The notes under the pieces are model-generated. The model was not told the DNA's origin. It saw only the letters and a list, made by a program, of their open reading frames with translations, and ran no database searches. A stretch of 18,505 nt of DNA. Origin: Clostridiales bacterium (GTDB taxonomy: Bacteria; Bacillota_A; Clostridia; Saccharofermentanales; Saccharofermentanaceae). Both the position numbers and the translations under genes were made by a program. The stretch covers positions 1 to 18,505 of the forward strand of contig JAGCGE010000004.1 of the NCBI GenBank assembly GCA_017649745.1, in the 5' to 3' direction. Of this stretch, positions 80 through 17,086 are shown in pieces. Position 1 is the stretch's first letter. Each line of letters begins with the position of its first letter.

Positions 80-97
80 TGAATTGCGAAATGCTGT

Positions 98-345: not shown

Positions 346-370
346 TAACTTGAAAGGAGGAGTCGCTTAG

Positions 371-1534: not shown

Positions 1535-2044
1535 ATGGATAGATACCTTTTGGATTCCAATAGTTTTATAACGCCATATAAAAACTATTATGCGTTTGAT
1601 CTAGTCCCACGATATTGGGATATGTTTAAAGCTGTTTTAATGAGAAATGATGTAGCATTGCTGGATATGGTTTACGACGAAATTGATGCGGGAAACGATG
1701 CATTGACGGAGTGGCTTAAGCAGATAAACGGAATAAATATTTTAAATCATAGGGAACCGACCGTTGTTTCTAAATATGGTGAGGTTATTAGGTATTTAAG
1801 CTCTAGTCCCTTATATAGTGATAAAGCTGTTAGACAATGGGCAAGTTCTATTGCTGATCCTTGGTTAATTGCTACTGCTTCTGTAAATGATTATAAGATT
1901 ATCACTTTTGAAACTCCGAACAAAAATCTAAATTCAAAAAATCCAGCTGGAAAACCTAAAATACCAGATGTTGCCAATGTATTTAACGTTCAATGCGAAA
2001 ACCTGTTTTATTTTATGAGGAAAACAAGCATTTATATACAGTAA
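1535..2044 (+). CDS. DUF4411 family PIN-like protein
   Basis: The 169-residue product starts with YLLDSNSFI, the hallmark of the DUF4411 family, whose fold resembles PIN-domain ribonucleases. The acidic residues expected at a PIN-like metal site are present: D7, E49 (VYDEI), D108 (ADPWLIATA) and D145 (KIPDVANVF). The ATG begins on the base after the upstream stop codon, so expression is coupled to the ImmA/IrrE-type partner. Pairing of DUF4411 with an XRE/ImmA-IrrE protein recurs in bacterial genomes and is usually read as a toxin-antitoxin-like unit, with this protein as the probable RNase toxin. That role is inferred from family and context, not visible directly. No clear terminator follows it. 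Confidence 0.8.
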   Translation: MDRYLLDSNSFITPYKNYYAFDLVPRYWDMFKAVLMRNDVALLDMVYDEIDAGNDALTEWLKQINGINILNHREPTVVSKYGEVIRYLSSSPLYSDKAVRQWASSIADPWLIATASVNDYKIITFETPNKNLNSKNPAGKPKIPDVANVFNVQCENLFYFMRKTSIYIQ

Positions 2045-2126
2045 TTTTATGTTCCTTTAATATATAATAATTGAAACACCAATAGGAAACATGATAGTTA
2101 GCTTTTGATGTGTTGAATTGTTGAAT

Positions 2127-2915
2127 ATGGCGAAGAAACGGGCGAAGTGGAAGATTATATTACTCGTTGCAATAGTGGCTACGGTGATCCTGATGTTGAT
2201 ACCGATCAGGTTCGGTATCAAGGACGGAGGAACGGTGGTCTGGTGTCCGGTCTCGTTTCTTTATAGGGTTACCAAATACCATAGGATAGTTGATGGTACT
2301 GAGATCGATGGGGTCAAGTATTACTGCTCGGCAGGAACTACACAATATCTGGTGGGTACAGAGGTCCGATTGCTGTCTTTGTTTACCGTCTATGATGATA
2401 CGCATCTGGAATCAGCGGGAGAGCAGCCGTATAGCGAAGAGGTTACCGATATCATTTTATATTGCAAAGCTAACTGCCCTGACGGGGTAGAGCTGAAACA
2501 TGTGTATTTGGATTTTCTGAATAGCGATGAAGAAAAGATCAGGGGCATAGAGTTAGGTTTTGAGGGGAATAATACACTCTCCGAGTCCAATGAGGTTTTT
2601 CTGATGATGAGGGATTACCTAGGGGATACGGATGGTTTTCTGTATAAAGAAGGATTTACAGTCACCATTCATTACGGAGTCAATGAGAAGGTCGACAAGC
2701 ATACCTGGACGGTGACTGAGGCAAATTACATAGTAAAGACCACAGACCTGACGGATATCGAACTGGAGATCAGCACCAATATGATCCCCGCGAAAGCGCT
2801 GGATGATCTTGTTGATGTGAATAGGATAAAGATAACTTCGGGTAACCTGACGGAAGAAGAGACCGCTATCCTGGGTGAGATGTATCCCAGGGCGAAGATA
2901 GAGGATCCGAAGTAA
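2127..2915 (+). CDS. Hypothetical membrane-anchored protein
   Basis: I do not recognise a characterised family. The protein has a basic N-terminus (MAKKRAKWK), one strong hydrophobic segment at about residues 9-28, then a motif IRFGIKDGGTVVWCPVSFLY that resembles the conserved region after the membrane anchor in many Clostridia hypothetical proteins. The remaining 220 or so residues look extracytoplasmic and rich in beta strand, with no catalytic motif that I can see. ATG 2127 is preferred; an in-frame TTG at 2118 would add three residues. Neither start has a clear ribosome binding site. The base composition is visibly less AT-rich than the operon at 4717-12764, closer to what I take as host DNA. 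It ends just before the truncated retron. Confidence 0.65.
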   Translation: MAKKRAKWKIILLVAIVATVILMLIPIRFGIKDGGTVVWCPVSFLYRVTKYHRIVDGTEIDGVKYYCSAGTTQYLVGTEVRLLSLFTVYDDTHLESAGEQPYSEEVTDIILYCKANCPDGVELKHVYLDFLNSDEEKIRGIELGFEGNNTLSESNEVFLMMRDYLGDTDGFLYKEGFTVTIHYGVNEKVDKHTWTVTEANYIVKTTDLTDIELEISTNMIPAKALDDLVDVNRIKITSGNLTEEETAILGEMYPRAKIEDPK

Positions 2916-2945
2916 GTTATAAGCAGATAGTTGCAAGTTATTCCA

Positions 2946-2965
2946 AGAGCGTTTGCTCGCTTTTT
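2946..2965 (+). terminator. Weak intrinsic terminator
   Basis: AGCG (2948-2951) can pair with CGCT (2958-2961), followed by TTTT, about 30 bases after the stop of the hypothetical gene. The stem is short; an alternative GAGC/GCTC pairing overlaps it. It lies just ahead of the retron repeat, so it would isolate that unit from the upstream gene. Confidence 0.35.
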
Positions 2966-2971
2966 GTCCCC

Positions 2972-3436
2972 AAAACAGCCCACAACTCTTGTTACACTTC
3001 AATCAATAGCAGAGCAATAGAGCAAGTCAGCTAATTACTGACGCCGGCCGCGAGTCGCAGCCGGAGAAGAACCACCGATGTGTAAGTAACGTGAACGTTA
3101 CTTACAGTATCGAATCTTCTTCACTGAAATTAAATCAACTTCGTTAATGATAGTTTCACCTCAGAATTTTCGATATTGATATTGTATTGCTCTGCGGATT
3201 GGAGGAAGGCGATGGCTTATTTGGATCCGGATGTTATTGCAGTGCTTGTAAATGTACCTGTCCATATACTTTATGCTTTCAGTAACAGCTCTTATAAGCA
3301 TTATCGCCTTATCTCTATTCCTAAAAAGAACGGAGAGATGAGACAGCTCACTGTTCCTGATAATGATCTTAAGATAATTCAGAGAAGCATCTATAATAAG
3401 TTCCTGAAGGGCAGGGAAGTGTCTCCTGCTGCTAAA
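2972..3436 (+). repeat. Direct repeat, copy 1 (retron RNA plus 5' part of RT)
   Basis: From AAAACAG at 2972 to codon 75 of the reverse transcriptase reading frame this stretch matches 13670-14133 closely, in the same orientation. Identity is near total through the msr-msd core. It is lowest between the msd stem and the a2 segment, where small substitutions and an indel occur. After 3436 the two copies share nothing obvious. The starts of the copies are 10,698 bp apart. Confidence 0.9.
3000..3184 (+). ncRNA. Retron msr-msd RNA, copy 1
   Basis: Inferred retron non-coding RNA. The a1 segment CAATCAATA (3000-3008) pairs with the a2 segment TATTGATATTG (3174-3184) in nine Watson-Crick pairs with a 2-nt bulge. 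The G at 3009, in AGC directly after a1, is the candidate branching guanosine. Then come hairpin GTCAG/CTGAC, a GC-rich hairpin CCGGC/GCCGG, and a long stem based on GGAGAAGA (3063-3070) with TCTTCTTC (3115-3122), capped by a perfect GTAAGTAACG/CGTTACTTAC hairpin (3082-3105). A last hairpin TGAAA/TTTCA (3125-3129 with 3154-3158) precedes a2. The structure is intact although its own RT is truncated. Exact RNA and msDNA ends are not determined. Confidence 0.7.
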
Positions 3437-3499
3437 GTGAAAGTGCGAGAAGGATGTGCGCAGATGTCATTAGTTGACATGGTGCAATTGGCAACTTAA
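3212..3499 (+). pseudogene. Truncated retron reverse transcriptase
   Basis: The frame starts at ATG 3212 behind GGAGGAAGG (3201-3209), at the same place as the intact RT at 13909. It matches that protein for 75 residues, with a few substitutions, through GREVSPAAK, then continues into 20 unrelated residues and stops. The homology ends at 3436, before all catalytic motifs (the first Asp, QGxxxSP and YCDD), so no polymerase can be made. The ribosome binding site is retained, so a 95-residue peptide could still be translated. It may have been left by a deletion, or by an incomplete duplication of the downstream retron. Confidence 0.85.
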
Positions 3500-3514
3500 A
3501 ACGCTGAAAACGCC

Positions 3515-3572
3515 TGTGTGCCAGCGGCACACAAAGATTCTATCATTTTCATATTGTTAACAAACTAACAAT
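3515..3572. repeat. Two inverted repeats after the truncated RT
   Basis: TGTGTGCC (3515-3522) and GGCACACA (3526-3533) form a perfect 8-bp hairpin with a 3-nt loop. ATTGTTA (3553-3559) and TAACAAT (3566-3572) form a second, followed by CTTTT, which could act as a weak terminator. They may be remnants of whatever replaced the rest of the RT gene. Confidence 0.45.
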
Positions 3573-3668
3573 CTTTTCGTGATGAAATGCCTTTTCGAAG
3601 GATAGTACAATGTTGCTATAAATTCAATAATTGTTGAGGATAACTACAACAGGCGAGGAGGCGATTAT

Positions 3669-4436
3669 ATGTTGATAGATATGAAATGCAGTAACTGCGG
3701 TGCTCACATGCAATTCGATAACACCAGAGAGTTCATGTTCTGTGAGTATTGTGGTCATAGAGTAGCTAATGTGAATGAACAGGTTAACATTAATCAACAG
3801 GTGAACGTAAGCGGAACAGTATATCATGTTCAGGATCGTTCAAATGAGCCGAATCTTTACATCTCATATAACACTTCCAATCCTAAGGTCGGAATGGTGA
3901 CAAGAATTGTTTCGACAGGTGTTAAGAGCACATATGTAAACGGCCAGACACTGTCATTCCATTTGAATCAGGGACGTCAACTGATCGTTCTCAAGATCGG
4001 CAGCAGGAACTATAACAGGGAAGTCGTTATACCACCTGATAATTCACCGGTAAGGATATATGCTTCATTCAATGGAAGAGCACGTATTTCTATCGATCAA
4101 CCTAGAGTAGCCGTTGGCCCTGCAGGTGCTCCTCCTGGAACACAGTATGTACAGCAGTTCTCCAACAGTAATCCACAGGGAACAGTAACAGCTGTTCAGC
4201 AGCCTGTAGCAGCAAGCTATCCAGCAGTTGGCGGAGCAAGGAAGTCCGGTTTGTCGATACTGGCTTTCATCCTCTCCTTCACTCTTTATCTGTCTTGGGC
4301 AGGTGTTGGTGTAGCGGTATTGGATGCTTTCTTCATGGATAAGGAGAAACAGCAAAGCCATGGTCTATCTTATGCGGCTATGGGTATAGGCGGATTCATG
4401 ACGTTGATCCTTCTGATGATCATGGTGAGGAGTTAA
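3669..4436 (+). CDS. Zinc-ribbon membrane protein
   Basis: This 255-residue protein begins with a classic zinc ribbon: CSNCGAHM near residue 8 and FCEYCGHR near residue 29, four cysteines in two CxxC knuckles. A beta-rich middle region (about residues 60-150) follows, then a Pro/Gln/Val-rich linker, then two hydrophobic segments near the C-terminus (about residues 195-215 and 235-253) that should be membrane helices. The layout matches zinc-ribbon, DUF4190-like membrane proteins that are frequent in Clostridia; no enzymatic role is visible. The start at ATG 3669 has GAGGAGG at 3655-3661. A strong terminator closes it, so it is a single-gene transcript separate from the operon downstream. Confidence 0.75.
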   Translation: MLIDMKCSNCGAHMQFDNTREFMFCEYCGHRVANVNEQVNINQQVNVSGTVYHVQDRSNEPNLYISYNTSNPKVGMVTRIVSTGVKSTYVNGQTLSFHLNQGRQLIVLKIGSRNYNREVVIPPDNSPVRIYASFNGRARISIDQPRVAVGPAGAPPGTQYVQQFSNSNPQGTVTAVQQPVAASYPAVGGARKSGLSILAFILSFTLYLSWAGVGVAVLDAFFMDKEKQQSHGLSYAAMGIGGFMTLILLMIMVRS

Positions 4437-4465
4437 TTGGCAGGGGAAAATATAGACTAAGTAAG

Positions 4466-4498
4466 AAAATCCAGATGGGGAAGCCCATCTGGATTTTT
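4466..4498 (+). terminator. Strong intrinsic terminator
   Basis: TCCAGATGGG (4470-4479) pairs perfectly with CCCATCTGGA (4484-4493) around a GAAG loop, flanked by AAAA on the 5' side and TTTTT on the 3' side. The A/T flanks also make it usable from the minus strand. It separates the zinc-ribbon gene from the AT-rich operon. Confidence 0.9.
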
Positions 4499-4594
4499 GA
4501 CCTATATTTAGATTATTCTATAGTAATGCAGAATGAAATTGATAGTTTGAGTAAGAGTAAAAACATAGTCCGAAGCTAAACAAGCTATTGTAAA

Positions 4595-4626
4595 GTATTT
4601 TTTCTCGTGTTTCCCTCGTGAAATAC
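4595..4626. promoter_or_regulatory. Repeat cluster upstream of the giant-protein operon
   Basis: GTATTT (4595-4600) and AAATAC (4621-4626) are inverted around a direct repeat of CTCGTG (4604-4609 and 4615-4620) spaced 11 bp start to start, about one helical turn. This arrangement, some 30 bp upstream of the candidate -35 box, suggests an activator or repressor site. No known operator is recognised. Confidence 0.35.
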
Positions 4627-4657
4627 AACTTTTTTGTGATTAACCAGAAATGAATGA

Positions 4658-4687
4658 TTGATTTTGTCGACTTGAATTTGATAAGAT
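4658..4687 (+). promoter_or_regulatory. Candidate promoter of the defence-like operon
   Basis: TTGATT (4658-4663) and TAAGAT (4682-4687) are 18 bp apart. A start near 4694 would leave a short leader to the GGCGAGG site and ATG 4717, and would make the upstream GTG at 4699 an unlikely start. The -10 box matches the consensus at only four of six positions. Confidence 0.4.
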
Positions 4688-4716
4688 TGTATCATTAAGT
4701 GTTGGCGAGGCCGAGT

Positions 4717-7700
4717 ATGAAGTGGCAAGTTTATAATCTTGATAGTTTGCAACCTGTTGACATAGTTCATGCGTATGATTCATTGATTAATGACAGCGTT
4801 GTATGTATAGAAACTACAGGAATTGAATCGCTGATTAATGATTATCTTGATAAAACCAGCCTTTCCTCGAAACTTACAGTGAAGTCTTTCACAAACAAAA
4901 GCATTAATCTGTTGATTAATGTTGATTTGCGTTTGGGAAAGAAATACTCTATCATTGGAATTCAATTTTTGATTGAACTGTTTTGTAAATTAAAAAGGAT
5001 CTTCAATGATGTTATAATTCTGTTTTACGATGATGAACAAACTAGTGGAAATCTTTTTAGATTATCTCATATGCTATATCCTTGGTGTAATTTTCATTCG
5101 TCCATAGATAAAGTGTTTTATGTGGATTTTGCTACTAGGAAGAAACAAGCATTAAAAGATAATATTCTTTCTCATGAATTTCATAATGTATTGCCTCTTT
5201 GTCAACTATCTTTAGAGCTGGTTCAGAGATTTGCGTTACCCTATAACTACAGGAGTTCTGACAGAAAAACAGATGCTGAAGCATCGTATTATCATAATTT
5301 TATTACCAATTATGTAGATGGTGTCATTGATGAACGGACAAAATTAAATAAGCTTGAAGTTCGCGAAAGACTAATAGATAATGCTCCATTACTGGCAGTA
5401 CTTTTGTTTGCCAAATGCATAGAAATTTACAAAAAGACCGAAATAGATCAAATTTCGGTTTTTGAAACATGTATTTCCTTTGCTCAAGGAATAATACAAA
5501 TTATGGAGAATGCATTGATTCATCCTTCTAAGGAATCTGAATCGATAGCTTTCTTTTCGTTTCGTTTTCATACAGACAAAGATTTGAAATCGAATAAGAA
5601 ACGTTCGAAAACTATCACAGACTACTATTTCTTATTTCCGCCGCAGTGGGATTCAAAGTTGGTAGTGGAGTTCTCTGTTTCTGATATAGCTCTTGAGGAG
5701 AAAAGCAATCAAGGTATTGTAAAGCAATTTAAGAATAAAAGTTCTTTATCCAGTAAAATAGGATTGGATGATATTTTTAACTATAGTGAAGATGAGTTTA
5801 GCGAAATACAAGGAGTGTTTTCTAACCCTTCACAAATAGCTAATCACTATGGATTGCAAATTTTTTCAAATATGGTAACTGGGAATAATGGTTTCTTTTC
5901 TGTTATCAGTGATAATGAGAAGCATATCGGGTTGGCTGATAATACGCAAAAAGATATTATCAAAGAGAATAAAAAAAGATTTGAAGCGTTTGAAGGAACG
6001 ACCTACTCTGTAGTATGTCCAATTAACGCTTATTCGTCTGAATCATTGACATATAACGGAATCGCTAATACATCTACTCGCAATATTCTTGTTAACGATA
6101 TTCCGGAATATGATTCCGAAGTATTAGAGCGAGATGATGTGAGCAGAATACTTAGTAATATTTCTTTTAATGGAGAATTCATGCATAAAAAAATGTTTGA
6201 AACGATAGTCCGTGAAAAAGAAACAATTGTGTTGCGAGCCTGCGGTATTATCCAAAAGAATTATCTTCATGATAGATCGACCATTAATTTCGTTATTAAA
6301 TGCGGATTAAGTTTTATTGAAGTTGAATTATTATGCAAGGTTTTCTTTGTTTTGCTGACGAACAAAGTTAAATATAACATTAATCATTTGGCAATACAAT
6401 TTGACGCTATTTCAGATTGTGTATATGCTGCGAGATTATTTAGTTTATTTTATGATAGAAGAGGCATGTGCAAACTAGTAGAAAAAAATACAGTTTTGTT
6501 ATATGCAAGTGAGGGAGAAGATCATACCCAAATTTTCCTTTCTGGAAGCAATCTCGTTGAGGCTTTCAATGGATTAAAAAATCAGTATGTTAATGGCTGT
6601 TTGGAAGCTAGTCTATATAATCATGCAAAAGCAATTATAGGAAGAAGAAGCACTGATAAAAACATATCTAAAGAGTTTGTATCGGATATTGTGTCCAAAC
6701 ATTGTGTTACTGATTACAAAACGGGTAAACTATTAATTAATCAAGAGTTGATTCATGTGTTGAATAATGATGTGCACGATAAAAATAGATTGGGATGCAA
6801 GATTTCGAATACTCATATTAGAGTTTCAGGCGTTCATTTGGATACTTTTTATGAAGCTCAGTTCCTTTTTGGAAACACATATTGGTGCAATGCTTTTGCT
6901 GTTTTTTTGTTCATTAGGATTAGCAAATATATTAAGGAACATCCTAGTAGTGAGCCAGTAGTTTTATATGGTTATGAATTGTACTCTGCCGATGTTATGT
7001 ATAAAACAAAAGAAATGCTGGAGTCTGTATTAGATCGAGAAATATATTTGCTTTTTTACGAGAAAGGTGATCCAGGAGAAGATTCCAATAGAGTTAGATA
7101 CATAGACGATATTAAAAAAATCGAAGACGTTACAATTTTCTATTTCGTTGGAATAAGCTCTACTCTTTCCACATTTAATAGAATGCATAACGCCCTTGAA
7201 TGTGAAATGAAGAATCATAATATCACTTGTAAATTCAACGATACTAAATGTTTTTCTATCATACAAATTGTGGGTGATGACCCTGTATGTCGAGAATACA
7301 TTAGTTTTGAAGAAAAAGCTGAATATAATAGAGTTCGAAGTGTTAAGAATCACTTGGATTTTATACCTGGATTGAGTTCAAATCGATATTCAGAGTATAT
7401 GGTGGCGGTTTCTTCTAAATGGAATAAGGCCGGAGAATGTGCACTGTGCAAAATGCAGTTTGGCCCTTCAGGAAAAAAACTAGAAAGAATCTTAGAGCGA
7501 CTTGAAGAAAAAGTATTAATTGAAGTAAACGAAACCTCAGTTGTTCCAACAATGCTATATGATTTGGGCGAGTTACCTACAAAGACACCTAAAAAACCAG
7601 TATTTGACATAAGGCCTATCAAGAAAGGGGAATATGTTTACTGTGATCATGTTGAAAGAAATGGAAATCACTACCAATATTATCTTAGATTATCTAAGCT

Positions 7701-10413
7701 ATATAGAGATTACAGAGCAAATGTAATTGAGTGGCTTGAGAATCTTCCGCTAGAACCTGAATACGAGGATTGGTTTAAAGAAATAAACAATCCAAATTAC
7801 ATAAATATAATAGTCTCTCCGCATCAGTATAGCAAAAACAGTTTTGTTGATGATGTTAATTCTAGGATATTTAATGGAGGAGCACATACTATTATTTTTG
7901 ATGTAAACAAAGAATACCGCAAGAACTTCATAGCTAAGTATGATTTTTTTGCAAAGAGTATTCAGGATAATAGCAAAGAGATAAGGTTGTTTTTTGTTAC
8001 GGATCAAATAGTTTCGGGACAGTCTTTTTTTCGTGCTAAATCACTTGCATCTTCCTTGTTTGAAATGTGGGATAACAAAAATGTTTTTTATGGGATATTT
8101 GTGTTGCTAAATAGAAACTCAGGTTATTCCAAAAAATCCCTGATAAAACCTAATAAATCGGATATCCCATATTTCAGTTTTATTGATCTCTTTATTCCTT
8201 CACTAAGGATAAATTATGATTCTTGTCCTATATGTAATAAAGTAACTAGTCTCAAAAATGCTCTGTATAATTGTTCTTTGAATCCTTTAGCTAAGGAGTT
8301 CCAAGAAGAGATTATTTCTTTGCGTGTTAAGAGCATACGAACTGTTCATAATCTTTATTCTGACAGCAATGATAGTGCTAATGAGAGCACAAATAAATCT
8401 AAGATAAACAATACGAGAGAAAAATATAATATCAACTTTGATAGGATGCAGTGTGAGAATTATATGTGGAGAACAATTAAGCAGAGTACTCATCCAGTGT
8501 TTATATTGTTGAGTATAAGCAGAATGCTTAAAACGAATCATTCCGATTCTTGTCGTAGATTATCAATGTTTGTTGAGTGCCTATCTCAGCCATTACTATT
8601 TTATAGAGAAAGCATAAAAAATTATATAATGCCATTTTTGGTTGAATTGTTTTATGAAATAGTTAGTGGATTTTTAAAAGAACAGGATGACCTCCCTAAT
8701 ATTCTGATGTTTTTCAAACATGCTTATCAAATTGAAGAAAAGAGTTGTGAAAAATCGTTTGTTGAATATGATTCTTTTTTCGAAGGAGAGAATTTGGAGG
8801 ATTACAATTTAATAAATCTGCTATTTGGAAACAATATTATTTATGATGAAAAGATGATAAGCGTGTTGATAAGTATAATTAAAGGACTTAGCAATATATC
8901 ATCAAATGCATTGCTCGATATTAACAACATAATTAGCTGTTACAAAGTTAGTGAAGTTGTAAAAGATAAGGCAGGTACCATGTTGAGAACCTCTCTAATG
9001 ATGGGAATCAAGTTTGTAGTATGTAGCGACAAGGATAAAAGTTGTTTTGTTGATTATCAAGATGAAAATGCTTTAAAAAACAATACTAATAGTTCAAAGG
9101 CTCTTGTATTGAGTAATAATATTGAGAACTATTTAGCAAACAATAAAATAATAGACATTAATCAAAATGCGTGGCTAACAATGCTTTATATGGAAAGTAT
9201 TTCCTATAATTATGATAGCGATAACATAAGGATATGGTTTAAGAATTATGAAAACAATTTGGTACAGAATAAGTATCAAATTATTGTGGATAATATGAAA
9301 AAAACAAATGAATCCTTTAATGATATAGACTTACAGATTTGTGTTGATCATAGAGAAGAGGAATATAAGAGCATAATTATTGATGATAGAAAACTGGAAT
9401 ATAAAAAAATAAAAAGAGAAATAGAAAAGTACGGTTTTTATGTGGACGAATCCAAGATATACATATTGCTATCAAATAATTATCGTAGTAGAGAAGATAT
9501 ATCTATTTCCGAATGGGAATCATTGTTTGGGAGCTCAAAAAGTATTGATGCTGTAATAGTGCTTGAATATAAAGCTGGTATTTCGGATTTGGATAAAATA
9601 AAGCATGCCAGAGAAGTGTTGGTCTACAAGAATTTATTAGCTCAAAATCTTTATCGTGATTTTGAGGAGAATATATTTGGACAGTATTTCACTAATAAGG
9701 ACATTGTTCTTCAATTAGGAAGCGCTCCTTTATGCCTGCATAGAGGTAGTGTTTTGAGCGGCTTTACTAAGTATCTGGTTAAGATTGATAATAATAATCA
9801 AGATTTGTATTTTGAAATAATAAGTCATTATGCAAATACTCTTATCACGTTTGCTAATTTGGGAAGAATAGTTGGTTCAGTTCCGGAAGGAGTGAGAGTT
9901 AATCTTTCTCCTGATGTGAGTAAGACTTCGCTGTCACATACTAAATGTGTTTTAGATTGTTTCAAAAAAGCAGTAGGAAAACAAAGAGTCAAAGATAACT
10001 TTGGTTTTTTAATGACCAAGTTAGAAGATTTGAAAACAGAGTATGTTCTTAATAGCCCTGAACTGAACCCGCATTTTTTCTCTTTAACCAATGAATCGAC
10101 TACTCCATACGACTTATCAGTTCTCTTGTACGTTTTCTTAGAAAATGCACTATCTCATGGAGATGACAAGAAGACAATAGATGTGAACTTTACATATGTT
10201 CCTGAGAACAGGTCATTCGATCTTACTATAACTAATTACAAAAAGAGTTCTGATAAGCATAGTCGAATGATTACGATTCCAAGTTTAAAATATCTATTCA
10301 ACGCATTTGAAAGAGATCAGATAAACCCTACTCCTGTCCTAAGCATTAAAGAGACAAAAAAGAAATACATTGTTAAGATAGAGACTATAATATACATAGA
10401 CTTTGGGAGGTGA
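4717..10413 (+). CDS. Giant GHKL-ATPase / PRTase-like sensor protein
   Basis: I do not recognise a named family for this 1,898-residue protein, but several parts can be read. Near residues 230-430 is a GHKL ATPase-like domain: N-box ENALIHP (E264, N265) and a G2-like segment YGLQIFSNMVTGNNGFFSV beginning near residue 378. Two phosphoribosyltransferase-like units follow. The first has a strand at 749, a loop VGISSTLST at 811-819 and Cys-x2-Cys at 908/911. The second has TDQIVSGQS at about 1095-1103 and CPIC at 1170/1173. Residues 1190-1600 are mostly helical and unassigned. A second, degenerate GHKL-like domain ends the protein (ENALSHG, E1809 and N1810) but lacks a clear glycine-rich ATP lid. 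No transmembrane helix is evident, so it is probably cytosolic. GGCGAGG at 4704-4710 favours ATG 4717. It is the first gene of the operon; I infer a sensor or kinase-like role. Confidence 0.7.
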   Translation: MKWQVYNLDSLQPVDIVHAYDSLINDSVVCIETTGIESLINDYLDKTSLSSKLTVKSFTNKSINLLINVDLRLGKKYSIIGIQFLIELFCKLKRIFNDVIILFYDDEQTSGNLFRLSHMLYPWCNFHSSIDKVFYVDFATRKKQALKDNILSHEFHNVLPLCQLSLELVQRFALPYNYRSSDRKTDAEASYYHNFITNYVDGVIDERTKLNKLEVRERLIDNAPLLAVLLFAKCIEIYKKTEIDQISVFETCISFAQGIIQIMENALIHPSKESESIAFFSFRFHTDKDLKSNKKRSKTITDYYFLFPPQWDSKLVVEFSVSDIALEEKSNQGIVKQFKNKSSLSSKIGLDDIFNYSEDEFSEIQGVFSNPSQIANHYGLQIFSNMVTGNNGFFSVISDNEKHIGLADNTQKDIIKENKKRFEAFEGTTYSVVCPINAYSSESLTYNGIANTSTRNILVNDIPEYDSEVLERDDVSRILSNISFNGEFMHKKMFETIVREKETIVLRACGIIQKNYLHDRSTINFVIKCGLSFIEVELLCKVFFVLLTNKVKYNINHLAIQFDAISDCVYAARLFSLFYDRRGMCKLVEKNTVLLYASEGEDHTQIFLSGSNLVEAFNGLKNQYVNGCLEASLYNHAKAIIGRRSTDKNISKEFVSDIVSKHCVTDYKTGKLLINQELIHVLNNDVHDKNRLGCKISNTHIRVSGVHLDTFYEAQFLFGNTYWCNAFAVFLFIRISKYIKEHPSSEPVVLYGYELYSADVMYKTKEMLESVLDREIYLLFYEKGDPGEDSNRVRYIDDIKKIEDVTIFYFVGISSTLSTFNRMHNALECEMKNHNITCKFNDTKCFSIIQIVGDDPVCREYISFEEKAEYNRVRSVKNHLDFIPGLSSNRYSEYMVAVSSKWNKAGECALCKMQFGPSGKKLERILERLEEKVLIEVNETSVVPTMLYDLGELPTKTPKKPVFDIRPIKKGEYVYCDHVERNGNHYQYYLRLSKLYRDYRANVIEWLENLPLEPEYEDWFKEINNPNYINIIVSPHQYSKNSFVDDVNSRIFNGGAHTIIFDVNKEYRKNFIAKYDFFAKSIQDNSKEIRLFFVTDQIVSGQSFFRAKSLASSLFEMWDNKNVFYGIFVLLNRNSGYSKKSLIKPNKSDIPYFSFIDLFIPSLRINYDSCPICNKVTSLKNALYNCSLNPLAKEFQEEIISLRVKSIRTVHNLYSDSNDSANESTNKSKINNTREKYNINFDRMQCENYMWRTIKQSTHPVFILLSISRMLKTNHSDSCRRLSMFVECLSQPLLFYRESIKNYIMPFLVELFYEIVSGFLKEQDDLPNILMFFKHAYQIEEKSCEKSFVEYDSFFEGENLEDYNLINLLFGNNIIYDEKMISVLISIIKGLSNISSNALLDINNIISCYKVSEVVKDKAGTMLRTSLMMGIKFVVCSDKDKSCFVDYQDENALKNNTNSSKALVLSNNIENYLANNKIIDINQNAWLTMLYMESISYNYDSDNIRIWFKNYENNLVQNKYQIIVDNMKKTNESFNDIDLQICVDHREEEYKSIIIDDRKLEYKKIKREIEKYGFYVDESKIYILLSNNYRSREDISISEWESLFGSSKSIDAVIVLEYKAGISDLDKIKHAREVLVYKNLLAQNLYRDFEENIFGQYFTNKDIVLQLGSAPLCLHRGSVLSGFTKYLVKIDNNNQDLYFEIISHYANTLITFANLGRIVGSVPEGVRVNLSPDVSKTSLSHTKCVLDCFKKAVGKQRVKDNFGFLMTKLEDLKTEYVLNSPELNPHFFSLTNESTTPYDLSVLLYVFLENALSHGDDKKTIDVNFTYVPENRSFDLTITNYKKSSDKHSRMITIPSLKYLFNAFERDQINPTPVLSIKETKKKYIVKIETIIYIDFGR

Positions 10414-10415
10414 AC

Positions 10416-11003
10416 ATGAAAAAGACGTTGATTTATTTTATTGACGACATTGAAGCCGAAGCTTCATTGTTGGAAAGGGCGCTCAAAGATGAAATCGAGA
10501 ATTATCTTAGAGAAAAAAATTTGTATGAAGTGAAAAAAACGGTGATTGATAAAGGTACTTTTGATTGTGACATGTTTTCGAGTGCTTTGATAGATAAAAT
10601 ACCAGATTGGAAGAATCAATATGAAAAAGTGAAGATATTAGTTGACCTATGTTTGGTGGAAAAAGTATTTGTTAACAATCCATCTGGGGTTCGATTGGCA
10701 GAAGCAATAGATAATAAGGCTTTTGACTATGCTGATTACTTGTACATCTATATGGTTACTAATAAGGTTTTGGGTGGCTCCGATTATGATACAAGTATTG
10801 ATACTATGCTTAAGTCTAAATTGAAAAATGTAAAATACATGGGGATTTTGGAAAAACCAATCTATTATGACAATGATGGACCTCACTTAACTGGGAAACT
10901 TACCTCAACTACTCGATACATTGATATTATTCCAGAAGAGTATAGACAGAGAAAGGACTATTTGGCATTTATATATGCAATTCTTAAGGGGGAGAAGAAA
11001 TGA
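10416..11003 (+). CDS. Atypical CheY-like receiver protein
   Basis: The 195-residue product has the signature positions of a response-regulator receiver: an acidic pair after the first strand (YFIDD, D10 and D11), a candidate phospho-acceptor Asp after a later strand (ILVD, D77), a Thr after the next (MVT, T115) and a Lys-Pro (EKP, K147). The spacing from D11 to D77 is longer than in standard receivers, so there is an insertion or an enlarged alpha1-beta2 region, and no DNA-binding output domain follows. GGGAGG (10405-10410) overlaps the end of the upstream gene and favours ATG 10416; an in-frame GTG at 10410 overlaps the stop codon of the giant gene. With a GHKL protein directly upstream, I infer a two-component-like relay that passes the signal to the genes downstream. 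Confidence 0.65.
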   Translation: MKKTLIYFIDDIEAEASLLERALKDEIENYLREKNLYEVKKTVIDKGTFDCDMFSSALIDKIPDWKNQYEKVKILVDLCLVEKVFVNNPSGVRLAEAIDNKAFDYADYLYIYMVTNKVLGGSDYDTSIDTMLKSKLKNVKYMGILEKPIYYDNDGPHLTGKLTSTTRYIDIIPEEYRQRKDYLAFIYAILKGEKK

Positions 11004-11956
11004 GTTATATTAAATCTGGAAAGATGGGTTTATATCTGAGAATGGTTGGAGATAGTTTTGCAAAGGCATCTGAAAATGTTTATGCTCATTACTGTTCTTT
11101 GGATAGCTTTATTGTTTTTTTAAACGACTATATTGAAGGTAAAAAAATAAAAAGGAGACCGTTGACATATTCTGGCCGCTATGACAAAAATATCGTTGAA
11201 ACTCCATATGTGACGTTTTTTGCATCAAACCTTACATTCTTAAATGATAGGAAAGAGTTTGATTTAGGAAAGAATAAAGTATTAGAACATATGAATTCTA
11301 TTCCAGAAAACGAATTAAACAAAGAAATTTTCGTTAGTTGTTTTTGTTCGGATTCTGACTCTCTCACTCAGTGGAAATATTATGGGAAGAACAGTGGACT
11401 AGCGGTTGTTTTTGATACTGAAAATGTACTCATTAATTACTATGATGATGCAGACGAAGATGCGAGTTGCAAAAGTGATGATGGAGACATGGTGTTTGAT
11501 CCTAGGGAGGTTTTATATAAAGACTATGATAAAACAATAGATAAGATGCTGTCGTTATATTCTTCAGGAGTACAGAAAGCAAGTGAAAATGATATAGCTC
11601 AAGTAGTAATACCATATATTAAAGACGAGTATTTTGAGGATGAACACGAGAGCAGAATTGCTTTGTACAATATCAAATCTGAAGATGAAAAGCCGCTGTC
11701 TCATAGTAATTATCGTGTATCGTCAAATAAAATCATCCCTTATCTTAAAATGAAAATGTTTTATAAGGATGATAGTTGCAAACTCCCAATTAAATCGATT
11801 ACTATAGGACCTGGAGATGATCAAGATTTGATTATGGAAGCAGTATGTAATATCCTTTCACCAATGAATGACTATGATGAACTTTCTAATGGTGATAGGA
11901 TAATAAAAAAGTTAGATATAAGAATTCACAAATCTTCGTGTCCGTTCAAAGGATAG
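11000..11956 (+). CDS. DUF2971 family protein
   Basis: This 318-residue protein carries the DUF2971 pattern in order: YCSLDSF at 31-37, FFASNLTFLNDRKEF at 73-87, then FVSCFCSDSDSLTQWKYYG at 111-129 leading to GLAVVFD, and later a KDEYFEDEHESRIAL segment. These correspond to the family's conserved strand, F-ND-EF, QW-YG and E-W/S-R blocks. The biochemical activity of DUF2971 is not established as far as I know. ATG 11000 overlaps the receiver stop codon as ATGA, behind a strong GGGGGAG site, so the genes are tightly coupled. Directly after a receiver gene, and with no DNA-binding domain anywhere in the relay, it is a good candidate effector. I infer that it is the toxic or output component; it could equally be an accessory protein. 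Confidence 0.75.
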   Translation: MSYIKSGKMGLYLRMVGDSFAKASENVYAHYCSLDSFIVFLNDYIEGKKIKRRPLTYSGRYDKNIVETPYVTFFASNLTFLNDRKEFDLGKNKVLEHMNSIPENELNKEIFVSCFCSDSDSLTQWKYYGKNSGLAVVFDTENVLINYYDDADEDASCKSDDGDMVFDPREVLYKDYDKTIDKMLSLYSSGVQKASENDIAQVVIPYIKDEYFEDEHESRIALYNIKSEDEKPLSHSNYRVSSNKIIPYLKMKMFYKDDSCKLPIKSITIGPGDDQDLIMEAVCNILSPMNDYDELSNGDRIIKKLDIRIHKSSCPFKG

Positions 11957-12006
11957 TCTAGTGGTTTTAGTATCAGTATATTGCCTGAGATTTTTTAGAC
12001 ACTAGA
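11957..12006. repeat. Inverted repeat in the gap before the nuclease gene
   Basis: TCTAGTG (11957-11963) and CACTAGA (12000-12006) are perfect 7-bp inverted arms at the two ends of the only real gap in the operon (64 bp). A long-loop RNA stem could tune expression of the nuclease, or the arms could mark an insertion point. The symmetry alone does not decide. Confidence 0.35.
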
Positions 12007-12020
12007 AAGAAGAATTAAAT

Positions 12021-12764
12021 ATGATTGCTAATTGTGATTGTGGCTCATTGAGAACAATTGGATATGAGGATTATTTAAATGTTCTTTTTAATGAGATATT
12101 GTTGGACTATCCTTCGAGAGAAGAATATTTGGCAGAAATAATTCTTCCTTTCCTGAAAGATTGCTGCCCCAAAGGCATCAAGGTTATACCAGTATTTGCT
12201 GATAGAAATGTTGGACGCAAGAAAAAAGGGAATAACGAACGCATAGCAGAAGCGAATAACGTGCGAATGAAAATAATATGTGCTGAAAGCAAATCAGATC
12301 CAAGGTATAAGTATGTGGTTCCGGATTTTATTTTTGTGCCAGAAGAATATTCTTATGTTAATCCTGTAAAGCCATTGATAATGGTTGAGACAAAGGCTCC
12401 TGACATCAAAAAACAAAGTGATCAAAAGTACATTTATAAAGACATCATCAAGACAATCAAGTTGAATAAGAACGAAATCAGTGACGAGATAGAAGCTTGT
12501 GGAATGGTTATCTATACAGATTGTATTTCGTGGGCATTTCTTGTAAAGCAAGAAGGAGAAATTGTTGAGAGTGAAGATTATCCGACAATTCGACTTGTTG
12601 ATTATCAAGAAGAACAAAAATACACAAACCCTGACACTAAACGTGTAAATCCTCTGCTGAATGAGATTTCTCTTTTTTCTAGAGAAAACAAAGAGGGAGA
12701 GTCTAATTGGGATACCCTTAAGAGGCAGATTAAGAAAGTACTAAAAGAACAAGTAAAAAAGTAA
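12021..12764 (+). CDS. PD-(D/E)XK nuclease-like protein
   Basis: The 247-residue protein contains a restriction-endonuclease-like core: VVPDFIF (P101, D102) followed by LIMVETKAP (E123, K125), which fits the PD-(D/E)XK signature with conventional spacing. The segment resembles the N-terminal nuclease part of type I restriction R subunits and stand-alone nucleases, but there is no helicase or specificity gene nearby. The start is ATG 12021 behind a weak AGAAAGAAG site, 64 bp after the DUF2971 gene on the same strand, with similar AT-rich composition. It is probably the last gene of the operon. I infer a DNA-cleaving effector of the giant-sensor system; a separate function is possible because of the gap. 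No terminator is evident before the convergent macrodomain gene. Confidence 0.7.
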   Translation: MIANCDCGSLRTIGYEDYLNVLFNEILLDYPSREEYLAEIILPFLKDCCPKGIKVIPVFADRNVGRKKKGNNERIAEANNVRMKIICAESKSDPRYKYVVPDFIFVPEEYSYVNPVKPLIMVETKAPDIKKQSDQKYIYKDIIKTIKLNKNEISDEIEACGMVIYTDCISWAFLVKQEGEIVESEDYPTIRLVDYQEEQKYTNPDTKRVNPLLNEISLFSRENKEGESNWDTLKRQIKKVLKEQVKK

Positions 12765-12802
12765 ATCCTTGATAGTTTCTTCTAGTCCTGCAAGTGCTCT
12801 TT

Positions 12803-13381
12803 TCATGTGAACAGATCCTCATAATACTCAGGATAACAACGCTCAGCATAATTCCAAGTGATCTCGGAAGGCGGATTCATTACCTGGTTGTAAGCCAGGC
12901 TCATCATATTGGCTATCGTCTCAGAAGGGACTGCTCCGCAGCCACCACCGAAGGCAGGGATGAGGATGCTGGAGATCTTTTTCTCGAGAGCGAGGATGAG
13001 GCAGGTTCGCATGCAGGTGTAGACGACCATCGGATCTTTGATGCGGGAAGGAATCCGCATGGTTGGTGTGTGGATGAGTTTGATGGTGCCGGTGTCGATG
13101 AAGACGCTGGAGCCGACGGGCTGCTCGCCACGGAAGTGCTCAAGGATGTAGGATTGGACATGGGACATGAGGTCGCGGCCGAACCATTCGGTTATGGCAA
13201 GATCATAGCCGCCGTCCATGAGACCGTAGGAGTTGGTGGGAGAGACGATGCAGTCAACCTTGTGGGTCTGCATGAAGAAGTCGAATCCGCCGTGGAAGAT
13301 GGTAAAGTCCGGATTATCGGAGAAGTATTGTGACCAGGCGTTGACGGTATTGATGTTGTTGTCGATGAGATAAATATGCAT
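12803..13381 (-). CDS. Macrodomain protein (ADP-ribose binding)
   Basis: The 192-residue protein fills almost exactly one macrodomain. VDCIVSPTNSYGLMDGGYD (42-60) is the first ligand loop, with N50 and G57-G58 in the places of the usual N and GG, and ILIPAFGGGCGAVP (139-152) is the second, phosphate-binding loop. Macrodomains bind or hydrolyse ADP-ribose and its derivatives; which it does here cannot be told from the sequence. The start at 13381 has GAGG at 13389-13392 on the minus strand. It converges on the nuclease gene and diverges from the retron. Its base composition is closer to the retron and host-like genes than to the AT-rich operon. It could counter ADP-ribosylation, act as an antitoxin, or be unrelated cargo. 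Confidence 0.8.
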   Translation of the reverse strand: MHIYLIDNNINTVNAWSQYFSDNPDFTIFHGGFDFFMQTHKVDCIVSPTNSYGLMDGGYDLAITEWFGRDLMSHVQSYILEHFRGEQPVGSSVFIDTGTIKLIHTPTMRIPSRIKDPMVVYTCMRTCLILALEKKISSILIPAFGGGCGAVPSETIANMMSLAYNQVMNPPSEITWNYAERCYPEYYEDLFT

Positions 13382-13387
13382 AGGACA

Positions 13388-13412
13388 CCTCGTAATGTTT
13401 TCGAGGATTATA
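13388..13412 (-). promoter_or_regulatory. Promoter -10 and leader hairpin of the macrodomain gene
   Basis: On the minus strand, TATAAT (complement of 13407-13412) is followed by CCTCG and CGAGG arms (complement of 13402-13406 and 13388-13392). The second arm contains the GAGG ribosome binding site, so folding would hide it. I did not find a convincing -35 box. Confidence 0.4.
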
Positions 13413-13669
13413 ACAAAATGGACGAGGCGAAATCGGTTCGAACGTAGCTATAGTAATTTGTTTGTATCCGTTAACACGAACATACCCATGTAGTAATTTT
13501 GTTAATTCTATATCCCTTTACTTGATAAGGAGACCGCTACTGAATATTATAAAAACATGTCTTCATTGACACATCTTGTGAAGTATTAGTTTACAGTGAG
13601 GTAAAAAGTCGTTGTTTTCGCAATCGATTCCGTGAATTCTCAATTGAGCTAGCATTTACTACGAGTTAA
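13413..13669. other. Intergenic spacer before retron copy 2
   Basis: This AT-rich stretch lies between the divergent macrodomain gene and the retron. TTGACA at 13566-13571 has only a poor -10 (TTTACA, 18 bp away). TTGAGC at 13644-13649 with an AT-rich -10-like stretch near 13667 would start transcription close to the RNA. Neither is convincing. I see no gene here. Confidence 0.4.
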
Positions 13670-14133
13670 AAACAGTACACAACTCTTGTTACACTCCAAT
13701 CGATAGCAGAGCAATAGAGCAAGTCAGCTAATTACTGACGCCGGCCGCGAGTCGCAGTCGGAGAAGAACCACCGAGGAGTAAGTAACGTGAACGTTACTT
13801 ACAGGTATCGAATCTTCTTCAATGAATAAGAATTAACTTCGTTAATGTAAATTCACTTCAGAATCTTCGATATTGATATTGTATTGTTCTGCGGATTGGA
13901 GAAAGGCGATGGCTTATTTGGATCCGGATGTTATTGCAGTGCTTTTACATGTACCTGTCCATATCCTCTATGCATTCAGTAACAGCTCTTATAAGCACTA
14001 TCGCCTTATCTCTATTCCTAAGAAGAACGGTAAGACGAGACAGCTCACTGTTCCTGATAATGATCTCAAGATAATACAGAGAAGCATATATTTTAGATTC
14101 CTGAGGGGCAGAGAAGTGTCTCCTGCAGCAAAG
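13670..14133 (+). repeat. Direct repeat, copy 2 (retron RNA plus 5' part of RT)
   Basis: This matches 2972-3436 in the same orientation. The homology begins at AAAACAG just before the msr-msd and ends at codon 75 of the RT gene. Here the gene continues intact, which marks this copy as the functional retron. Confidence 0.9.
13697..13881 (+). ncRNA. Retron msr-msd RNA, copy 2
   Basis: It has the same architecture as copy 1. The a1 segment CAATCGATA (13697-13705) pairs with a2 TATTGATATTG (13871-13881), with one G-U wobble and a 2-nt bulge; an outer helix AACAGTAC/GTATTGTT may extend it. G13706 in AGC is the candidate branching guanosine. The hairpins are GTCAG (13723-13727) with CTGAC (13735-13739), a GC-rich hairpin at 13741-13761, and the msd stem GGAGAAGA (13760-13767) with TCTTCTTC (13813-13820) capped by GTAAGTAACG/CGTTACTTAC (13779-13802). 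The last is TGAAT (13823-13827) with ATTCA (13851-13855). Its position directly upstream of a retron RT is the standard arrangement. Confidence 0.75.
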
Positions 14134-14880
14134 GCTTATCTCAAAAAGGGGACAACAACCGAGAATGCTAAACCGCATGTAGGAAAGCCGATGATACTGA
14201 AGCTGGATATCAGGCACTTCTTCGATAATGTGCTGTTCTGGCACGTTAAGGAAAAGGTCTTCACGAGTGATATCTATTCTGAGAATGCAAGAGTCCTTAT
14301 GACTTATCTTTGTACTTATGACGGGCATCTGGCACAGGGTGCACCTAGTTCTCCTGCAATAACAAATATACTGATGAAGGACTTCGATGATGAGATCCTG
14401 AGGTTTTGCGGAAAGGATGGCGTGTGCTATACGAGGTATTGCGACGATATGACGTTCTCGGGTGTTTTCGAGCCGGATCAGGTGATATCAAAGGTGGCGT
14501 GGGAACTTAAGAAGATGGGCCTGCACCTTAATCCTGCAAAGACCAGGGTGATCTGGCAGGGGCAGCAGATGAATGTTACCGGACTTGTGGTCAATGACAA
14601 GGTGAGTGTGCCTGCGTCGTACAGACGCAAGATCCGGCAGGAGATCCACTACATATGGAAGTACAGTGTGGAAGACCATCTGAAGCACATGGGAAGAGAA
14701 GAAGACGAACAATACTCATATTTAAGTAATCTGCTCGGGAGGATCAACTATGTGCTGTCGATCCATAAGGATGATTTTGAGTTTCAGGAGTACAAGGATT
14801 ATGTGGTGATGGGATGTGACGGCCGGTTGAGGTATAAGGAACGGCCGTATCAGATCGGGATAGATGAGTTGCTGGGGTAG
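13909..14880 (+). CDS. Retron reverse transcriptase
   Basis: This 323-residue RT would synthesise branched msDNA from the RNA encoded just upstream. Visible motifs are the N-terminal RT segment YRLISIPKKNGKTRQL, the first catalytic Asp in LKLDIRHFF (D100), QGAPSSP (143-149), the active-site box YCDD (177-180, with Cys where YADD is most common), NPAKTRV, and the retron-diagnostic VTG (223-225) followed by LVVND. The length is normal for a retron RT with no fused domain. GGAGAAAGG ends two bases before ATG 13909, which I prefer over the in-frame TTG at 13873. No partner gene follows on this strand before the terminator at 15001. The known retron types usually carry an effector, so this one either stands alone or uses a gene elsewhere, perhaps the macrodomain or operon genes. 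Confidence 0.9.
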   Translation: MAYLDPDVIAVLLHVPVHILYAFSNSSYKHYRLISIPKKNGKTRQLTVPDNDLKIIQRSIYFRFLRGREVSPAAKAYLKKGTTTENAKPHVGKPMILKLDIRHFFDNVLFWHVKEKVFTSDIYSENARVLMTYLCTYDGHLAQGAPSSPAITNILMKDFDDEILRFCGKDGVCYTRYCDDMTFSGVFEPDQVISKVAWELKKMGLHLNPAKTRVIWQGQQMNVTGLVVNDKVSVPASYRRKIRQEIHYIWKYSVEDHLKHMGREEDEQYSYLSNLLGRINYVLSIHKDDFEFQEYKDYVVMGCDGRLRYKERPYQIGIDELLG

Positions 14881-15000
14881 AGGCCACGGTCATCGAGATT
14901 AATGTCGAGAGAGATCTATGATGAGTGGAAGGCACGTTGACTCATTAGATTATTTTGTGGTTTGCATCATTTTATTCTAAAGTATTTATGAATGAGGATA

Positions 15001-15039
15001 AGCAAAAGCCGGAGGCAACACCCCCGGCTTTGTTTTGCT
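15001..15039. terminator. Bidirectional terminator
   Basis: AGCAAAAGCCGG (15001-15012) pairs with CCGGCTTTG and TTTTGCT (15024-15039) around a short loop. The A-rich and T-rich flanks let it work in both directions, ending the retron on the plus strand and the radical SAM operon on the minus strand. Confidence 0.8.
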
Positions 15040-15062
15040 GTATGTCATTATGAGATGTTCTT

Positions 15063-15341
15063 TTAAAGAGACTGAATCTTCTTAAGCATTTCCTTATCTG
15101 CAAACATTGAAGGCTTAAGCTTTCCTTCGGAAAGACTCTTTTTTACTTCGGAAATAGCGATCTTGCCGTTGTCTTTAGCCTGAACCCATCTGCAGACCTC
15201 ACCGTGTGCAATTGCAGTGGCAACGCTCTTTGAAACCCCCAAACCTACCAGCAGGTCTACATAAGAGATTGTAGCTTCCTTTTTTGCTGCTTTGCCGCCT
15301 GTTACGGCTACTCTTGATACTCTTTCAACTTTCTTTTCCAT
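15063..15341 (-). CDS. Small protein partner of a radical SAM enzyme
   Basis: I do not recognise this 92-residue protein. It has a basic, Gly/Ala/Lys-containing N-terminus, then a helical segment (ISYVDLLVGLGVSKSVATAI), a single Cys in GEVCRWVQ and a Lys-rich C-terminal half. It has no signal peptide and no Cys-rich core. It follows the radical SAM gene by about 30 bp on the same strand. GGAGGT upstream supports ATG 15341 over an ATG five codons earlier, which overlaps that site. It might be the peptide substrate of the maturase, a recognition or chaperone protein, or a small regulator with a helix-turn-helix-like segment. Position supports a shared role; the sequence does not say which. Confidence 0.6.
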   Translation of the reverse strand: MEKKVERVSRVAVTGGKAAKKEATISYVDLLVGLGVSKSVATAIAHGEVCRWVQAKDNGKIAISEVKKSLSEGKLKPSMFADKEMLKKIQSL

Positions 15342-15373
15342 TGTCCGGACCTCCATAATCTTTTTCCCGCTTT

Positions 15374-16738
15374 TTATGACAAGACAGCTAATCTTTCCGA
15401 CACCTTTTCTGCCAGAAGACGCGGGTAATTCTCCTGATACAGGATGCAGTGCCTTAATGAATATCCTCTATTCTCGGCTTCTGCCTGCTTGAAACATCCT
15501 CCGGTGCAAAGCAGTGCATAGCGACATGAGATACATTGTTCATTCTTGATCAGTTTATGATCCGCATAATATTTTCTGACCTTATCATTCCAAAGAATTT
15601 CTCCGTTCTTGTTATAACGGCCGATATCATGTCCGTCTTTCTCAATCTCTTCACTGCATGCATATATCTTTTCATCCGGAGCAAAGACAAGAGTCTTTAG
15701 GGAGAGCATTGCACAATAGGCACAATGGCGTTGCAAAGGAAGACCGAGTTCTATAGCCAGATCCAGATTGTTCATTATACTCGAGATGTTGATATCAGGT
15801 GACAGATAAGGATATTTCTTGGAAAGGATTCGGCTCTTCCTATTGATCTCCGATTCATTCGCAATATGATTATCTTCCCCGGACACTTTACTGATGTATG
15901 GATTAACTTGACCTGATGGGAGAATACCCTCGTTCTCCAGATATATCAGCAATTCCTCGACATGGTCTATGTTGGTATCATCCACATTGATCCTCAGGTC
16001 GATATGTACATCTTTCTTCTCTCTTACAACATATTTTATATTCTCCATTATCCGGTCAAATGAGGATGTCTTATCCAATGATATACGGCGCTTGTCATGG
16101 ATACGTTTTGGACCGTCCACCGTTATCTGAAGTGTATTGATCATATCCTTGCCCAGGTATTGAAAGAAATAGTTGAGATCATGGGCATTGGTCGTTGCCT
16201 TGAACGATCGTCCTATCTCTTTTCCTTTACTGATGATATGATCCACGATTTCTACCGTTTCTCTTGTCAGAGGTTCTCCGCCGAACAACTGGATAGGATC
16301 CTTTACTTCTTTATCCTTCAAAGACATGAATATTGCATCGACCTGGTCTTTAGTTAATATCTGCTTTTGGTTTTTTCGAAAACACTCGCTGTCACGCTCA
16401 AAGCAGTATGTACATCTGTAGTTACAATTCATATTTACGGCCAGAACAACGAGATAATCTTTACGTTCGTCATCTATGCTTTGTGCGATGAACCGTGCGA
16501 GATCCTTTTCTTCTTCAAAGGATTTCTCAGTAATGAATCCCCGATCAAGATATTCATCAATATCATCATCTGACAACGGAATTCCTTCAAGCTCAGATAT
16601 TTCATCCGTGCCGTTTTCTGTCATGAAATTATATAACTCTTCTGATATAAGATCGATCGCTCCCGACAACCCGTTCAGCACTGCATAACCCATTTCCGGA
16701 ATCAATTCTGAGAAAATATTATAGCTGCTGAAACGCAT
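15374..16738 (-). CDS. Radical SAM/SPASM peptide maturase
   Basis: The 454-residue enzyme has the radical SAM cluster motif CNYRCTYC (C105, C109, C112), the SAM-binding GGEP (153-156), and a C-terminal SPASM region with cysteines at 339, 342, 361, 402, 405, 411, 415 and 431. These are enough for two auxiliary iron-sulfur clusters. The 90 or so residues before the core sit where many peptide maturases have a leader-recognition domain, but no clear match is visible. Enzymes with this layout modify ribosomally made peptides (thioether, C-C or similar crosslinks) or activate partner proteins. The start at 16738 follows GGAGGG. The small gene 15063-15341 is downstream in the same operon and is the only obvious candidate partner. 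The exact product is unknown. Confidence 0.85.
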   Translation of the reverse strand: MRFSSYNIFSELIPEMGYAVLNGLSGAIDLISEELYNFMTENGTDEISELEGIPLSDDDIDEYLDRGFITEKSFEEEKDLARFIAQSIDDERKDYLVVLAVNMNCNYRCTYCFERDSECFRKNQKQILTKDQVDAIFMSLKDKEVKDPIQLFGGEPLTRETVEIVDHIISKGKEIGRSFKATTNAHDLNYFFQYLGKDMINTLQITVDGPKRIHDKRRISLDKTSSFDRIMENIKYVVREKKDVHIDLRINVDDTNIDHVEELLIYLENEGILPSGQVNPYISKVSGEDNHIANESEINRKSRILSKKYPYLSPDINISSIMNNLDLAIELGLPLQRHCAYCAMLSLKTLVFAPDEKIYACSEEIEKDGHDIGRYNKNGEILWNDKVRKYYADHKLIKNEQCISCRYALLCTGGCFKQAEAENRGYSLRHCILYQENYPRLLAEKVSERLAVLS

Positions 16739-16798
16739 TGGCAGGCCCTCCGTTTACTGACAAAGATAAAACTTTCTTTACTTATAAAATATCATCTA

Positions 16799-16822
16799 AT
16801 ATTGTCTGTGTAAAGACAATAT
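16799..16822. promoter_or_regulatory. Inverted repeat upstream of the radical SAM operon
   Basis: ATATTGTCT (16799-16807) and AGACAATAT (16814-16822) form a perfect 9-bp inverted repeat with a 6-nt centre, about 60 bp upstream of the radical SAM start on the minus strand. TTTATAAG-like sequence between it and the gene could be the -10 region. It fits an operator for a dimeric regulator. The stretch from 16823 to 17022 shows no supported gene. Confidence 0.45.
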
Positions 16823-17022
16823 CACTGTGTTAGAACATTCTTGACATCGATATTTCTTTGAAACCATTTGCATTCTGATTAATGTCAACATACAGACTAG
16901 TATATTTGTGCATGAAGGGTGATGATCCATAACAAGTTTTTGCCTAATGATCTTGCATTTTTGTCCAATGTGCGAACAATAATTTACTGCATTATCTTGA
17001 TATGATAATTTCAATCTAAGAG

Positions 17023-17066
17023 GGACGATCCTTATACTTGTGACGAGGAGCGTCCTTTAATTTTTT
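17023..17066 (+). promoter_or_regulatory. Leader hairpin with T run before the small secreted protein
   Basis: CGTCC (17051-17055), followed by TTTAATTTTTT, can pair with GGACG at 17023-17027, or CGTC can pair with the closer GACG at 17042-17045. The two exclusive pairings before a T run, just ahead of a ribosome binding site, suggest an attenuator or a terminator of upstream transcription. The stems are short. Confidence 0.3.
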
Positions 17067-17086
17067 CGAAAAGAGAGGTATAAAAA

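Follow-up and report, generated by a model that had tools for sequence, protein, structure and literature searches.

The window analysed here, an 18,505-nt stretch of DNA (assembly GCA_017649745.1, contig JAGCGE010000004.1, positions 1-18,505, forward strand), contains three genes, called A, B and C in what follows, which we read, with a probability of about one half, as a phage-defence system, probably of the abortive-infection type, with a two-component-like design. This reading draws on a conserved operon, domain similarities, the exchange of an output module and the defence genes beside some related loci, all of which were found by computation. On the + strand, the open reading frame (ORF) of A encodes a giant sensor (4717-10413; 1,898 aa from its ATG, or 1,904 aa from an alternative GTG 18 nt upstream), that of B a stand-alone receiver-like protein (10410-11003; 197 aa) and that of C a DUF2971 protein, the proposed effector (11000-11956; 318 aa). 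A fourth ORF on this strand, D (12021-12764; 247 aa), is PD-(D/E)XK-like and lies outside the conserved system. The first-pass annotation of this DNA, which placed the start of the operon at 4658 (59 nt 5' of the ATG of A), described four same-strand ORFs with the first three tightly coupled, AT-rich relative to their flanks and two-component-like without a transcription factor, and this description holds: A and B, like B and C, overlap by 4 nt, D follows C after 64 nt, and the GC content is 0.28-0.34 across approximately 4.5-12.5 kb versus 0.38-0.45 in most flanking segments, the leftmost 2 kb of the window being likewise low (0.35-0.36).

In the collections searched, A is rare. Its relatives were collected by a protein search (7 sequences, including A itself) and an alignment search (11), which gave 16 identifiers altogether, and a pattern scan of a genome collection (84,980 species according to its description) located five loci, L001 to L005. 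Whole-genome profile searches were drawn around known carriers, which are included in the counts: A is carried by 5 of 297 genomes of one order and 4 of 295 of another (three new in each), by 2 of 391 genomes of one class (none new), and is matched in 2 of 58 genomes of a further order, one known and one weak (G986, 93 columns, E 1.7e-4), while the core containing the phosphoribosyltransferase (PRTase)-like domains is found in 2 of 398 genomes of one phylum, none new. At the sensitivity of our searches, A had no counterpart in plasmids, phages or viral contigs.

We compared 11 related loci, L001-L005 and L027-L032. Seven of them (L001, L002, L003, L005, L027, L030 and L031), like the window, present the order A-B-C on the same strand, with intergenic gaps from -53 to +77 nt, so that the recurring linkage of A homologues with receiver-like and DUF2971 genes anticipated by the first-pass annotation is indeed observed. 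The third gene is conserved across these loci: blastp links C of the window to C of all seven, the weak links being those to L002 (E 1.8e-4, the gene being cut by the contig end) and L030 (E 3e-4), whose C matches that of L005 with an E-value of 8.9e-23; Pfam names DUF2971 in C of L001, L003 and L005, the three that were scanned. B in the relatives was assigned by position and motif, not by sequence match, as blastp of the window B against the seven B proteins gave no match, and L030 B against L005 B gave an E-value of 0.003. A is split into adjacent ORFs, one with the GHKL half and one with the PRTase half, in L002, L003, L004, L027, L029 and L031, and the contig of L004 terminates within A.

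A second type of output was found in other relatives. In L028 and L032, A stops short of its histidine-kinase-like end and the next gene encodes a calcineurin-like phosphoesterase, and in L029 the PRTase half of A and the phosphoesterase form one fusion protein. Pfam assigns Metallophos to these proteins in L028, L032 and L029 (E 1.6e-6, 2e-14 and 8.6e-8, respectively), the DxH, GD and GNHD motifs are retained in all three, and these three loci show neither B nor C nor H1675, the histidine of the kinase-like end. Across the 11 readable loci, the kinase-like end, H1675, B and C are present together in eight and absent together in three, and this joint presence or absence is the strongest clue that sensing would lie with the core, signalling with the relay arm and action with C. 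In loci of the kinase type, an LRxILxxRxxLxxxLxxD-type helix sits directly before H1675; in the other type, a helix that looks similar by eye sits directly before the phosphoesterase, as though both outputs were plugged onto one linker. Downstream of the phosphoesterase-type locus L028, a 1,797-aa ORF (L028:9460-14853) has no PADLOC match at E <= 1e-5.

The product of A comprises an N-terminal GHKL domain, a middle domain, two PRTase-like domains carrying Cys/His clusters, a helical region and the histidine-kinase-like C-terminus. Residues ~250-436 (5464-6024, + strand) belong to the GHKL/HATPase_c superfamily: hhalign against 12 genomic HATPase_c domains gives a probability of 91.7 (E 7.9e-7), and the motif residues N265, D323 and G379 are present in 24, 23 and 24 of the 24 rows, respectively, of an alignment from which P0001, which is identical to the window, P0015, P0016 and the contig-truncated L004 are left out. 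The GHKL domain claimed in the first pass is thus borne out by profile-profile comparison, though Pfam misses it. The PRTase identity, also claimed there, is supported, with different evidence for each of two PRTase-like domains. Domain 1 (residues 672-865; 6730-7311, + strand) has a type I PRTase fold, and its hhalign E-value against genomic PRTases is 0.066 (reversed control 0.12). Domain 2 (residues 975-1175; 7639-8241, + strand) carries a clear VDDxIxTGxT motif resembling a phosphoribosyl pyrophosphate (PRPP) loop, FVTDQIVSGQSF in the window; its hhalign match to 15 genomic PRTases (E 0.0055, 23 columns) aligns the motif alone, and the fold matches shown for the PRTase region all fall on domain 1 and none on domain 2. 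The middle domain (residues 445-670; 6049-6726) has a weak PRTase resemblance (hhalign E 0.0071, 81 columns) and could be a third Rossmann-like or STAS-like domain. Since this domain, for which no PRTase identity is claimed, scores like PRTase domain 2, sequence profiles alone cannot settle the PRTases.

The C-terminus of A (residues 1615-1898; 9559-10410, + strand) has the fold of a HATPase-type catalytic domain without intact ATP-binding motifs: N1810 is kept in 15 of 21 proteins, and DxGxG is absent from the window protein. H1675 (codon at 9739-9741), the candidate phosphoacceptor of a putative DHp helix, is invariant (21/21) and is modelled in a low-confidence loop preceding a short helix in the predicted structure of A; an apparent H1675 of L029 in the 24-row alignment belongs to the phosphoesterase motif and was not counted. 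B carries the acidic residues D12/D13, D79, G93 and an LEKP motif with P150 (alignment A12). In the best of three alignments compared by hhalign with 12 receivers, the acidic pair and the phosphoacceptor D79 are in register (probability 64.8, E 6.2e-5), the remaining two giving E-values of 0.0025 and 0.0072, so the receiver identity proposed in the first pass stands in one of three alignments. The proposed phosphoacceptor, named there as D77, becomes D79 if numbering starts at the GTG of B. Judged by eye, this Asp is present in 8 of 8 B proteins, and the Lys before the Pro is missing from B of L027, L030 and L031.

Among A, B, C and D, Pfam recognises DUF2971 in C only (26.4 bits, cut-off 22), in agreement with the first-pass assignment, and A, B and D have no match above any cut-off in Pfam, PADLOC or NCBIfam. 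PDB sequence searches with profiles (GHKL domain 1, PRTase domains 1 and 2, the kinase-like end, B and C) and with A and D as single sequences returned nothing meaningful. The AlphaFold2 model of C (pLDDT 85.5) suggests, via matches to Tpt1 and DarT, an ADP-ribosyltransferase (ART)-like fold, and we propose C as a putative DarT-like effector. Comparing C with DarT and KptA by hhalign gave no significant score, and the positive control, DarT against KptA, failed to reach significance as well, which leaves hhalign without power for this question; the sole piece aligned with DarT places HYT..S of C opposite HIT..N of DarT. In the parts of the full-text literature covered by our search, DUF2971 is mentioned only in a genome reannotation. 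A macro-domain protein (12803-13381, - strand; Pfam E 1.3e-14) is encoded convergently with D, near the ART-like C, and tblastn finds no relative of it in the 11 other loci.

We scanned with PADLOC 19 neighbour or output proteins picked by eye, two of them phosphoesterases, and ten proteins of the window. Defence matches were found in 6 of 12 loci, the window with its retron gene among the six, a count that includes L003 and L027 as unscanned and has no background rate for comparison, so the expected defence-gene neighbours are confirmed for some loci. BrxA, BrxB and BrxC adjoin A in L031; LmuA and LmuB lie upstream in L005, and an LmuA fragment in L001; NsnA, NsnB, NsnC and AbiLi lie upstream in L004, and an OLD/Gaj-like ATPase (a broad match) in L002. 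Among the few proteins scanned in L028, L029, L030 and L032 there was no named system, L030 having one match to a candidate family, PDC-S15.

In the window, a retron reverse transcriptase (RT) gene (13873-14880) matches the PADLOC Ec107-like and RT_III-A models. A segment reaching from upstream of a retron-type RT gene into that gene occurs in two copies (2972-3437 and 13669-14133, in blocks 86-95% identical) that flank a 10.7-kb stretch holding the operon, with the full RT only in the second; Rfam detects no RNA family there. At 371-2044, a gene for an HTH-like and IrrE-like M78 peptidase stands immediately before a DUF4411 gene, an arrangement that resembles a toxin-antitoxin pair, and on the - strand (15063-16738) lies a radical SAM protein with a partial pVip match (E 2e-14) and a small ORF downstream. 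This duplicated retron region, the second, C-terminal HATPase/kinase-like module with H1675, the ART-like predicted fold of DUF2971 and the phosphoesterase output were all absent from the first-pass annotation.

We infer the course from sensing to phage protection, by way of phosphotransfer, activation of C and ADP-ribosylation, as follows. A would be quiet in its resting state until its GHKL-PRTase-PRTase core detects a signal linked to infection, perhaps a nucleotide or PRPP-like ligand. The signal would drive the kinase-like C-terminus to pass phosphate via H1675 to Asp79 of B, which would then free or activate C, and C, as a DarT-like ADP-ribosyltransferase, would halt the cell. In the sister systems, the same core would be wired to a calcineurin-like phosphoesterase with no relay.

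Several observations leave room for other readings: the second HATPase is degenerate (N1810 in 15/21), GHKL domain 1 is kept even where the relay is absent, three B proteins lack the conserved Lys, and half of the loci gave no defence match in the small set of neighbours that was scanned. The first three would suit a switch of another kind, in which A either senses through ATP-driven conformational change or modifies nucleotides as a PRTase, and its kinase-like end and B, as pseudo-enzymes, only dock C; Spo0B, whose GHKL domain is among the degenerate ones, offers an analogy. We consider such a switch unlikely: H1675 is invariant, the Asp of B occurs in 8/8 proteins, and H1675 and B are missing from the same loci, all of which favours phosphotransfer. 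The loci without a defence match, together with the kinase-like and receiver-like layout, would also fit an ordinary regulatory or housekeeping two-component system located by chance in mobile islands. That reading is improbable: there is no DNA-binding output, occurrence is sporadic (5/297, 4/295 and 2/391 genomes, known carriers included), defence genes are neighbours, and in sister loci the output gives way to a phosphoesterase, an enzyme type with a validated defence role in DS-8 and DS-9, according to the accessible part of PMC13092281.

Two further readings concern genes around A-B-C. In the first-pass annotation, D was a possible nuclease effector of a four-gene system. Its translation does contain the expected E123-x-K125, with PD at 101-102 (a motif seen by eye), and D lies on the same strand, 64 nt past C, and is AT-rich like A-B-C; however, Pfam assigns it no family, PDB sequence searches gave nothing meaningful for it, and tblastn finds no relative of it in plasmids or in the 11 related loci, of which L002 and L004 have contigs that stop too early to reveal a fourth gene. 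D was rejected as a member because of this lack of relatives, and the four-gene version appears very improbable; the domains of A, B and C, their linkage and the layout stand, without the nuclease. Type III retrons are associated with effectors of the PRTase kind, and the RT at 13873-14880 matches type III-A-like models, so A could be imagined as the effector of this retron. We rejected this candidate, for which there is scarcely any likelihood, as A matches 0 PADLOC families at E <= 1 and a tblastn search of the other 11 loci detects no relative of the RT.

Among known systems, Detocs, which reportedly combines a kinase-like sensor and a stand-alone receiver with no transcription factor, as in A-B-C, appears to be the nearest idea, compared by description and not by sequence. 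Detocs has three genes and a cell-harming output (PMC11249213, in its accessible part), as A-B-C would have, whereas the sensor core here is GHKL-PRTase-PRTase, the proposed effector is a DUF2971 protein instead of a PNP, and relatives of A-B-C swap the relay for a phosphoesterase. No model of PADLOC or NCBIfam, in which the presence of Detocs models is unchecked, matched A or B. DarTG is a toxin-antitoxin pair with a macro-domain partner and no known relay, unlike A-B-C. The likeness to DarTG (PMC5179494, accessible part) lies in the fold relationship that we propose between DarT and DUF2971. A metallophosphatase output is known in DS-8 and DS-9 (DefensePredictor, PMC13092281), and the L032 phosphoesterase weakly matches DS8 (E 5.2e-5) and DS9_1 (E 7.9e-4), far under the cut-offs; they differ in that DS-8 contains a NACHT domain and DS-9 is paired with a HAD phosphatase, and neither is described with GHKL or PRTase in the accessible part of that paper. 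HATPase and REC appear in its Fig. 6 legend as two of the predicted defence domains, and systems with HATPase, REC and PRTase domains are mentioned in its figure legends, from which their relation to A-B-C is not readable. VcSduA, a Shedu protein, resembles A in that its GHKL ATPase is proposed to gate a defence effector, but it is a single protein with a nuclease, and the accessible part of PMC12137116 describes no PRTase, kinase module or receiver. In the literature searched, with most subscription papers and all preprints outside the search, we found no description of the A-B-C combination or of its sensor core.

We tentatively suggest that these loci represent a new family of immune sensors, in which a GHKL-PRTase-PRTase core carries a swappable output, either a Spo0B/kinase-like phosphotransfer arm that would wake a DUF2971 ART via a receiver or a phosphoesterase attached directly. 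If this is true, DUF2971, a Pfam family without an assigned function, would be an ADP-ribosylating effector domain and gain in ADP-ribosylation a function that can be tested, PRTase folds would serve as infection sensors, and a second two-component-like route of phage defence would exist beside Detocs, in which the swap of relay and phosphoesterase on one core would make sensing separable from output for study.
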